In this document: in pieces, positions 55,102 through 62,278 of the stretch
Numbering within the stretch: position 1 is the stretch's first letter
Layout of the letters: every line of letters begins with the position of its first letter
NCBI GenBank assembly: GCA_903822495.1
Contig: CAIJPD010000045.1
Location: 121,580 to 185,579, forward strand
Length of the DNA: 64,000 bases
Direction: 5' to 3'
DNA from: an uncultured Chloroflexota bacterium
Lineage (GTDB): Bacteria; Chloroflexota; Limnocylindria; Limnocylindrales; CSP1-4
Notes under the pieces: generated by a model
Seen by the model: the letters and a program-made list of their open reading frames with translations, nothing else
What the model was told of the DNA's origin: nothing
Databases searched by the model: none
Program-made: the position numbers and the translations under genes

Positions 55102-55193
55102 GGAGAGGTCGCATAGTGGCCTAGTGCAGCGGTTTGCTAAACCGCCATGTGGGGTAACCTGCATCGAGGGTTCGAATCCCTCCCTCTCCGCCA
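55102..55193 (+). tRNA. tRNA-Ser(GCT), CCA encoded
   Basis: GGAGAGG...GCGGT-TTGCTAA-ACCGC...long variable arm...GGTTCGAATCC...CCTCTCCGCCA. Confidence 0.95.
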
Positions 55194-55937: not shown

Positions 55938-56013
55938 GCGCCCGTAGCTCAGCGGATAGAGCGTCAGGTTGCGGACCTGAAGGTCGTGGGTTCGAGTCCC
56001 GCCGGGCGCGCCA
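55938..56013 (+). tRNA. tRNA-Arg(GCG), CCA encoded
   Basis: GCGCCCG/CGGGCGC acceptor; TCAGG-TTGCGGA-CCTGA anticodon arm; GTGGG-TTCGAGT-CCCGC T arm; AGCGGATAGAGC D arm, G73. Confidence 0.93.
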
Positions 56014-59167: not shown

Positions 59168-59593
59168 ATGAACTACGAGTTGTTCATGGGTGAGGCCATC
59201 GCGGAGGCCCGCGCCGCCCTGGCGCACGGCCAGCGTCCGCATGCCGCGGTCGCCGTCGTCGATGACGCGATGGTCGCGCGGGGCCACGACCGGGTCGCCG
59301 AACTGGACGATCCCACGGCCCATGCCGTGATCGTGGCGCTCCGCGAGGCGGCCCGGAAGCTGGGCCGGGAGCGGCTCGGCGACGCAACCATCTTCGCCAC
59401 GGTCGAGCCGTGCGTGATGTGCATCGGGGCGCTGCTCGAGAGCGATGTCGCCGCGCTCGTCTTCGCGGCCCCCAATCGGACCGACGGCGCCGCCGGCTCC
59501 GTCATCCAGCTGGCCGAGCACCCGGACCTCCGCCGCCACCTCAAGGTCGTCAGCGGCATCCGCCGCGACGAGGTCGAGGACCTCCTGGGCTGA
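59168..59593 (+). CDS. TadA-like nucleoside/tRNA deaminase family protein with Glu-to-Val in the HAE motif
   Basis: DPTAHAVIVALREAARKLG...ATVEPCVMCIGALLES; zinc ligands kept, catalytic Glu codon is GTG. Confidence 0.88.
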   Translation: MNYELFMGEAIAEARAALAHGQRPHAAVAVVDDAMVARGHDRVAELDDPTAHAVIVALREAARKLGRERLGDATIFATVEPCVMCIGALLESDVAALVFAAPNRTDGAAGSVIQLAEHPDLRRHLKVVSGIRRDEVEDLLG

Positions 59594-59679: not shown

Positions 59680-59765
59680 GGAGAGGTGTCCGAGTGGTCG
59701 ATGGTGCCGCTCTCGAAAAGCGGTCTGCGCAAGCAGCGTGGGTTCGAATCCCACCCTCTCCGCCA
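59680..59765 (+). tRNA. tRNA-Ser(CGA), CCA encoded
   Basis: GGAGAGG...CCGCT-CTCGAAA-AGCGG...GGTTCGAATC...CCTCTCCGCCA. Confidence 0.96.
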
Positions 59766-59872: not shown

Positions 59873-59960
59873 GGAGAGGTCGCCTAGTGGACTATGGCGC
59901 CGCACTGGAAATGCGGTTCGGGGCAACCCGTCGAGGGTTCGAATCCCTCCCTCTCCGCCA
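59873..59960 (+). tRNA. tRNA-Ser(GGA), CCA encoded
   Basis: GGAGAGG...CCGCA-CTGGAAA-TGCGG...GGTTCGAATCC...CCTCTCCGCCA. Confidence 0.96.
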
Positions 59961-60052: not shown

Positions 60053-60318
60053 GCCGTGCTAGGCGGGGAACTAGCGGTGCCCTGTACCTGCAATCCGCTC
60101 CAGCAGGGCTGAATTCCCTCCCGAGGTCTCCGCTCTCGAACGCTGCCGTCGTGGGTGACGTTGAGGGCCGGGTCCCGCGCAGCGGCGAACCGCGATCCGT
60201 GTCAGGTCCGGAAGGAAGCAGCACTAAGCGACCATCGCCGGGTGCCGCGGAACGGCCTGGCCCGAGCCACGCACGAACGTGGGCACGAGAGTCCCCAGAT
60301 CGACGGAGGGTGCACGGC
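60053..60318 (+). ncRNA. ffs: Signal recognition particle RNA, large (Alu-domain-containing) type
   Basis: GCCGTGCTAGGCGGGGAACTAGCGGTGCCCTGTACCTGCAATCCGCT 5' domain; GTCAGGTCCGGAAGGAAGCAGCAC S-domain apical core; ends pair GCCGTGC/GCACGGC; -10 TACACT at 60041. Confidence 0.95.
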
Positions 60319-60353
60319 ACCTTCCTCCCGCTCGCCGCGCGCGCAGGAGCCAC

Positions 60354-62117
60354 GTGACCTCGACGATTCCGCACCAGGCCATCTACCGTCGCTGGCGGGC
60401 CCAGACCTTCAGCCAGATCGTGGGCCAGGAGGCGGTCGTCGCCACGCTTCGCAACGCCGTCCGGAGCGGCCGCGTCTCCCACGCGATCCTGTTCGTCGGA
60501 CCGCGCGGCACCGGCAAGACCTCCCTCGCCCGGATCCTCGCCAAGGCCCTCAACTGCACCAACCTGCAGGACGGCGATCCGTGCGATGCCTGCCCGGCCT
60601 GCGTCGCGATCCGGGAGGGAACCACCCTCGACGTGATCGAGATTGACGCCGCATCCAACCGCGGCATCAACGAGGTCCGCGAGCTGCGTGACCGGCTGCA
60701 GTACGCGCCGTCGTCGCTCCGTCGCAAGGTGTACATCCTCGACGAGGCGCACCAGATCACGAAGGATGCCTGGAACGCGCTCCTCAAGTCGCTCGAGGAG
60801 CCACCGGACTTCGTCGTGTTCATGTTCGCGTCAACCCACCCACAGGACTTCCCGCCCGCGATCCTGTCGCGGCTGCAGCGCTACGACGTCCGGCGGCTGA
60901 CGACCACGGAGATCGAAGGCAAGCTCGAACGAATCCTGGCCGCCGATGGGCACGCCGCGGAGCCGGGCGCCCTGCGCCTCATCGCCCGCCTGGCCGCCGG
61001 CGGCATGCGCGACGCGGAGTCGATGCTGGACCAGCTGCTCTCATCCACCGCGGGGCGCCTCGACGAGTCGTCGGTTCGTGACCTGCTGGGGCTGGCCGAG
61101 GCCGATGCCATCGAGCGGTTCATCGGCGCGCTGGTGGCCCGGGATCCCGTGTCGGGCATCGCTGTCCTCGACGAGCTCGAGGATCGTGGTCGAGACCTCC
61201 GGACCTTCGTCGACCAGGTGGCCGAAGGGATTCGGTCCGCCCTCGTCGGTGGGCTTGCTGCCGGGGCAGCGCCCGGGCGTCAGGCCGGGCTCATCGCCGC
61301 CGCGCGCGGGCTGTCCGGGATCGATCCATCGAGGGCCGGGATCGGAGGACTCCGCCTCCAGCTCGAGCTGGCCCTCTTCGGTCAGGGCGTCGCCGCCGAC
61401 CCAGGCGCAGACCCGCTGGAGACGCGCCCGGTCATCGAGCGTTCCGGACCCGGCTCGCAGATGGCGGCCCGTCCGGCGGCCCTTGCGGGTCCCGTGTCGG
61501 ACCCGGTGCCGGCGCGCGCGTCCGGTCCGTCGTCCCCGCCGCCCGCACCGGCCACGGACCAGCCCGCGTGGCAATCCCATGCGTCGGCAGCCCCCCCTGG
61601 CGACCTTCCGGGCCGGCCCGCCGCCATGCCCCGCGTCAGTCCGCTCCGCGACGATGCACGGCCATCGCCCGCCGTCGCGTCAACCCACGGTCTGGCCGCG
61701 TTCCCGTCGCCATCGGGCCAGGATGCCCCCCCGGCTCCGACACAGGCCGGCGCACCACGGACCTCGGACCTGGCCCGCCTTCGGGAGCTCTGGCCGCAGA
61801 TCGTCGCCCACATCAGCGCGCATCCCCCGACCCGTCCGCTGATCATCGCGTGCAGGCCCATCTCGGTCGAAGGCAACATCGTGACGCTCGGCTTCCCCGA
61901 GGATCAGGCGTTCCTGAAGGACGTCGCGTTCCGGCGCCGGCCCAACCTGGAGTCCGGCATCGGCCAGTTCCTCGGGCACGAGGTCAACGTCCGGTGTGTC
62001 GCGACCAACCTCGACGCCGTCGCGGTCCAGACAGCCAACTCCGACGCGGCCTTCCTCCTGGAGGAGGCGCGCCGGATCTTCGCCGACGACATCGTGGAGC
62101 CCGGCGAGGTGCGCTGA
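60354..62117 (+). CDS. dnaX: DNA polymerase III subunit gamma/tau
   Basis: YRRWRAQTFSQIVGQEAVVATLRNAV, FVGPRGTGKTSLARILAKALNC, CDACPACVAI, IDEAH-like LDEAHQITKDAWNALLKSLEEPP; GTG start with AGGAG RBS. Confidence 0.95.
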   Translation: MTSTIPHQAIYRRWRAQTFSQIVGQEAVVATLRNAVRSGRVSHAILFVGPRGTGKTSLARILAKALNCTNLQDGDPCDACPACVAIREGTTLDVIEIDAASNRGINEVRELRDRLQYAPSSLRRKVYILDEAHQITKDAWNALLKSLEEPPDFVVFMFASTHPQDFPPAILSRLQRYDVRRLTTTEIEGKLERILAADGHAAEPGALRLIARLAAGGMRDAESMLDQLLSSTAGRLDESSVRDLLGLAEADAIERFIGALVARDPVSGIAVLDELEDRGRDLRTFVDQVAEGIRSALVGGLAAGAAPGRQAGLIAAARGLSGIDPSRAGIGGLRLQLELALFGQGVAADPGADPLETRPVIERSGPGSQMAARPAALAGPVSDPVPARASGPSSPPPAPATDQPAWQSHASAAPPGDLPGRPAAMPRVSPLRDDARPSPAVASTHGLAAFPSPSGQDAPPAPTQAGAPRTSDLARLRELWPQIVAHISAHPPTRPLIIACRPISVEGNIVTLGFPEDQAFLKDVAFRRRPNLESGIGQFLGHEVNVRCVATNLDAVAVQTANSDAAFLLEEARRIFADDIVEPGEVR

Positions 62118-62138
62118 CCGAGTTCTGCACGACGCGGC

Positions 62139-62278
62139 GCCATCCTGCAGACTGGCCGAATGGCCGCGCCATCCCGCAGACTGGCCGAATGGCGGCGCCA
62201 TCCCGCAGACTGGCCGAATGGCGGCGCCATCCCGCAGACTGGCCGAATGGCGGCGCCATCCCGCAGACTGGCGGCGCC
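62139..62278. repeat. 29-bp tandem repeat, 4 full units plus a partial fifth
   Basis: Unit GCCATCCCGCAGACTGGCCGAATGGCGGC at 62139, 62168, 62197, 62226 and partial at 62255. Confidence 0.95.

Follow-up and report, generated by a model that had tools for sequence, protein, structure and literature searches.

A TadA ortholog without its catalytic glutamate in Chloroflexota families that carry tRNA-Arg(GCG)

Two Chloroflexota families carry, together with a tRNA-Arg of anticodon GCG, an ortholog of the tRNA deaminase TadA in which the catalytic glutamate has been replaced (Glu-less TadA, or pseudo-TadA). We consider it very probable that a switch to a G34 tRNA-Arg freed TadA, that most Chloroflexota lost tadA, and that these two families (f1 and f4) kept it as a zinc-binding pseudoenzyme. 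That TadA, its tRNA substrate gone, has taken on a new function in this clade as a conserved, non-catalytic zinc-binding protein, a parallel to eukaryotic ADAT3 that lacks an active partner, is the reading we lean towards, with clearly less confidence. By itself, tRNA-Arg(GCG) is of an already-known type; the new part is the retained pseudo-TadA, and our literature search found no description of a Glu-less bacterial TadA. The window referred to below is the whole stretch of 64,000 nucleotides that was analysed, and f1 is its own family.

Decoding of CGN codons

As a sequence-only reading of the window had claimed, a tRNA-Arg gene with anticodon GCG and an encoded CCA end is present at 55938..56013 on the + strand, exactly where ARAGORN places it; the Rfam tRNA model matches the same interval with 69.9 bits (E 4e-14), and the anticodon arm is TCAGG-TTGCGGA-CCTGA. 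Its conserved neighbour is a tRNA-Ser(GCT) called by ARAGORN at 55102..55193 (+ strand), and related genomes also carry tRNA-Arg(GCG) adjoining tRNA-Ser(GCT).

The arginine anticodons of the genome are GCG, UCG, CCG, UCU and CCU, with the UCG (L012, TCG) and CCG (L008) tRNAs covering CGA and CGG. None of the 43 tRNAs found with Rfam in the source assembly (3.61 Mb, 68 contigs, 89.7% complete), each one typed by anticodon, has an A34 anticodon, and tRNA-Arg(ACG) is not among them. A PF14437 profile search of the genome returned one protein, that at 59168..59593, which reads HAV where TadA has HAE; neither a tRNA-Arg(ACG) nor an intact tadA thus turned up elsewhere among the typed tRNAs and PF14437 matches. 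Nor did the 122 genomes sampled from families f1, f2 and f4 yield a complete tRNA-Arg(ACG) gene. Because there is no A34 anticodon among the typed tRNAs and the only TadA-family protein reads HAV, the earlier proposal that CGN codons are read without inosine in this bacterium is well supported at the level of sequence, and the same state is seen in relatives; inosine may be expected to be absent from its cellular tRNA altogether. In such a system, tRNA-Arg(GCG) would decode CGC (G:C) and CGU (G:U), tRNA-Arg(UCG) would decode CGA and also take CGG by wobble, and tRNA-Arg(CCG) would decode CGG. With no A34 tRNA left, TadA would be without a tRNA substrate. A shift in CGA usage once inosine was lost was considered and not seen, CGA making up 13-16% of arginine codons in all groups by rough ORF calls.

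The tadA locus and its phylogeny

The claim of a TadA homolog with a lost catalytic Glu about 3 kb away also stands. At 59168..59593 (+ strand), 3.2 kb downstream of tRNA-Arg(GCG), lies a putative pseudo-deaminase of 141 aa (PF14437, 82 bits; PF00383, 74 bits), whose motif reads DPTAHAVIVALR...EPCVMC against DPTAHAEIMALR...EPCVMC in E. coli TadA, HAV standing for HAE and PCVMC being kept. Its score against the NCBIfam TadA equivalog, 112.9 bits, is below the cut-off of 150, but the same is true of several intact Chloroflexota TadA. It is followed on the same strand by tRNA-Ser(CGA) (59680..59765, a conserved neighbour downstream of tadA) and tRNA-Ser(GGA) (59873..59960), both called by ARAGORN, by the bacterial large SRP RNA (RF01854, 60054..60317, 174 bits in Rfam) and by a listed dnaX open reading frame (60279..62117), within which the true dnaX start probably lies 3' of the SRP RNA. 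This order of tadA, two tRNA-Ser, SRP RNA and dnaX matches the yaaJ-scr-dnaX order of B. subtilis (PMC10454642). Immediately 3' of the dnaX stop codon, at 62134-62272, a 29 bp unit is repeated in tandem in 4.8 copies with 97% matches.

In a TadA tree built without column 59, the Glu-less proteins group as a single clade (support 100/100) within the Chloroflexota TadA; its stem is long (1.01). Since the gene occupies the ancestral tadA-SRP RNA-dnaX locus and its clade nests in this way, we identify 59168..59593, on locus and tree, as the tadA ortholog and not a stray paralog. The TadA of f3 and f5 (L111-L129) groups with non-Chloroflexota TadA and not with f1/f4 of the same class, for which transfer, a long-branch effect and tree error are possible reasons.

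Residues and fold of pseudo-TadA

The anticodon-loop contact positions are known from S. aureus TadA (PMC3711424), and their E. coli equivalents, assigned by alignment, were read in a set of 58 sequences of Glu-less TadA. All 58 keep the zinc ligands H57, C87 and C90, and none has Glu59, its place being taken by V (54), I (3) or T (1). R98 is replaced by D in 47 sequences and N46 by D in 46; at D108, 44 sequences have N and 13 keep D. Most sequences have V, I or T at K110, and N127, F148 and F149 are mostly replaced, with R74 retained in 42. The 49 intact Chloroflexota TadA retain nearly all of the contact positions lost in the Glu-less set. An invariant N-terminal MNYEL is among the clade's own features. 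The AlphaFold2 model of the window protein shows a confident TadA fold (pLDDT 92.3), to which the A. aeolicus TadA is the closest structure (1wwr, TM 0.90). The protein consists of the deaminase domain only, with no N-terminal extension, and no active ADAT2-like partner was found among the PF14437 proteins of the genome, of which it is the single one.

In ADAT3, the change of Glu to Val is described as abolishing deamination (PMC7713142), and by this precedent the f1/f4 protein is probably no longer able to deaminate; we infer that deaminase activity of any kind is absent. The retained zinc site and pocket fold would also suit a protein that is still an enzyme, acting on another substrate as a deaminase or as another zinc hydrolase with a different general base. 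Yet small hydrophobic residues occupy the site of the catalytic Glu throughout the alignment, the ADAT3 precedent speaks for inactivity, and no replacement acidic residue was identified in pseudo-TadA, so that we regard continued catalysis as quite unlikely and keep to a non-catalytic protein.

Distribution of the anticodon and of TadA

We surveyed 151 genomes of the class and 399 Chloroflexota genomes for the phylum. Exact DNA patterns miss divergent genes and the survey counts are therefore lower bounds; many of the genomes are incomplete MAGs. In the class, a GCG T-arm pattern matches 94 genomes, a few of them by chance, and genuine tRNA-Arg(GCG) occurs in f1, f2, f4 and one f3 genome, with complete tRNA-Arg(ACG) genes in f3 only. 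The f3 exception (G001, 97% complete; L191/L204) has tRNA-Arg(GCG) and no TadA match in a family where ACG and intact TadA are otherwise the rule; it appears to have switched to GCG independently within an inosine-using family. Five ACG pattern matches in f1/f4 were rejected as chance (L131, L132 and L138) or as 3' fragments of a tRNA that lack a proper 5' half (L139 and L140). These two fragments, from two f4 genomes (each around 1501, that of L140 on the - strand), are 3' halves of tRNA-Arg-like sequence with ACG at the anticodon place; their sequence is similar to the 3' portion of tRNA-Arg(UCG), and integrated elements may have left them behind as attachment-site remnants.

In the phylum survey, a D-arm pattern that reads both ACG and GCG had no match in 189/399 genomes, and its results refer to the matches listed, hence no percentage is given. 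Among these matches, GCG is found in most families and ACG in f9, f19 and f44; the phylum survey also has ACG in f3, f52 and f75. Three GCG examples from other Chloroflexota families (L197-L199) were confirmed as tRNA-Arg by ARAGORN. Among the matches listed, GCG, usually without TadA, is the commonest Chloroflexota state. Published cases include CPR (PMC8629427), Thermotogae and Spirochaetes (PMC8007984) and some Mollicutes (PMC3711424). The sequence-only reading implied an unusual anticodon; in its phylum GCG is not unusual, and the phylum survey rules out that GCG is unique to the lineage.

The Glu-less pattern (HA/HP[V,I,L]...EPCxMC) matches 94/151 class genomes (77/84 of f1 and 17/22 of f4), and two genomes outside the exact pattern, G070 with HAT and G018 with HAV, bring the number to about 96/106 f1/f4 genomes with Glu-less tadA. 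Its 37 genomes in the phylum survey are all f1/f4, with no match outside these families in the 399-genome sample. The HAE pattern matches 27 class genomes, 19 of them with true TadA, all in f3/f5. Eight HAE matches in f1/f4 (L104-L110 and L130), considered as a second, intact TadA, align with other deaminases and show no TadA features. In a MAG labelled Gemmatimonadota (L082), a 2.2 kb contig bears a Glu-less tadA of Chloroflexota; misbinning of the contig is the most likely explanation.

The TadA model NF008113 has strong matches only in f3, f5, f9, f19, f44, f49, f52, f54, f66, f74 and f75 of the 399-genome sample, with HAE in 30/30 of the strong matches read. Matches in f1/f4 are weaker than those of the strong families, the remaining weak matches include other deaminases, and at 1e-12 the model has no match in 234/399 genomes. 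The f46 genomes (L188, L189 and L190), which carry tRNA-Arg(GCG) where examined, encode short, TadA-like putative deaminases that have HAE but lack the C-terminal FF region, and whose zinc motif is PC.MCCG. In f2, no PF14437 protein was found in nine genomes (about 1.1 Mb, streamlined); the locus in three of its genomes runs tRNA-Ser(GCT), tRNA-Arg(GCG), then tRNA-Ser(CGA) and tRNA-Ser(GGA), with tadA missing, and the two f2 loci with ORFs listed have other genes between the tRNAs and no tadA.

The idea that the TadA state is simply tied to GCG does not hold. Glu-less TadA is found only in families that have GCG, but most GCG lineages show no TadA at all; across the phylum GCG usually comes without TadA, but f1 and f4 keep a Glu-less one under apparent purifying selection. 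It could be argued that nothing here is out of the ordinary: GCG would simply be what Chloroflexota normally have, and the TadA-like protein would be a deaminase paralog of unrelated origin, in a state independent of the tRNA. GCG is indeed commonest in Chloroflexota among the matches listed and is known in other phyla (PMC8007984 and PMC8629427), and for the tRNA alone the argument stands. For TadA it is largely refuted by synteny and tree, as far as these go: the gene lies with SRP RNA and dnaX at the locus ancestral for tadA, the PF14437 search returned no second family member from the genome, the protein groups within the Chloroflexota TadA, and Glu-less TadA is confined to GCG families. 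As a whole we consider this explanation very improbable, and we continue with a retained tadA ortholog.

Selection and proposed history

In the closest pairs of Glu-less tadA, dN/dS is 0.045-0.115, and the median over 390 Glu-less pairs is 0.18, dS being less reliable at distance. These values point to purifying selection on Glu-less tadA. The protein could nevertheless be a decaying relic that has drifted since the loss of ACG and seems conserved because decay is slow, as the deletion of tadA in f2, its absence from most GCG Chloroflexota and a very diverged Glu-less copy in the TadA tree (G065, f1) might suggest. But the frame is open in about 96 genomes from two families that belong to different orders, the zinc ligands and MNYEL do not vary, and dN/dS is low in close pairs; none of this is expected of a relic over such depth, which makes simple decay unlikely.

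A retained pseudoenzyme would fit the following history. A tRNA-Arg(GCG) gene, adjoining tRNA-Ser(GCT), would first have coexisted with tRNA-Arg(ACG). One genome (G320, f66; L194, G320:C134:12500-13200) has tRNA-Arg(ACG) and tRNA-Arg(GCG) side by side, adjoining tRNA-Ser(GCT), and an intact TadA; its GCG tRNA is 85% and its ACG tRNA 77% identical to tRNA-Arg(GCG) of the window. According to a review (PMC8007984), A34 and G34 isoacceptors are mutually exclusive in every organism. G320 is a plausible intermediate on the path to ACG loss, and GCG would have arisen as a separate gene, not through a point mutation in ACG. With ACG gone, deamination of tRNA would no longer have been needed, and tadA would have disappeared from most Chloroflexota. 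B. subtilis can do without TadA although it has ACG (PMC10454642), which makes the loss of TadA plausible in a lineage that has G34 to fall back on. In the ancestor of f1/f4, the ortholog would have lost Glu59 and most of the anticodon-contact surface, keeping fold and zinc site, and would have been held by purifying selection afterwards. Its new, non-catalytic role is probably that of a zinc-stabilised binding or scaffold protein, which is our best guess; f2 genomes live without tadA, and the role is thus not essential in the order.

Taken together, these lineages suggest a graded series of tRNA-modification loss, from ACG with TadA (f3) and ACG plus GCG with TadA (G320) to GCG with pseudo-TadA (f1/f4) and GCG without TadA (f2 and most of the phylum). 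They show that a tRNA-modifying enzyme can lose both its substrate and its catalytic residue and still keep its fold. Annotation pipelines would label these Glu-less proteins tRNA deaminases, which calls for caution, and the present role of pseudo-TadA is open to direct testing.

Comparison with known systems

The tRNA side of the system has close counterparts. CPR bacteria have, in excerpts of PMC8629427 and PMC8007984, the same G34 tRNA-Arg without ACG and the same UCG and CCG tRNAs for CGA and CGG, with GCG also in Thermotogae and Spirochaetes; a Glu-less TadA ortholog is kept here, whereas those excerpts describe none for these groups. Mollicutes such as Mycoplasma genitalium and M. pneumoniae likewise have GCG and UCG tRNAs and inosine-free reading (PMC3711424, Table 1), but they have lost tadA and the CCG tRNA, whereas the genome studied here has CCG and retains tadA in its Glu-less form.

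On the protein side, pseudo-TadA shares with bacterial TadA the orthologous locus, the fold and the zinc ligands H57, C87 and C90, and differs from it in having no Glu59, in the replacement of most anticodon-contact residues and the C-terminal FF, and in a genome that offers no ACG substrate. With eukaryotic ADAT3, the inactive partner of ADAT2, it shares Val in place of the catalytic Glu and a kept zinc site (PMC7713142), and its predicted model resembles mouse ADAT3 (7nz8_B, TM 0.85). Unlike ADAT3, it has neither an active partner in the genome nor an N-terminal extension, and it appears to have originated independently, inside bacterial TadA.
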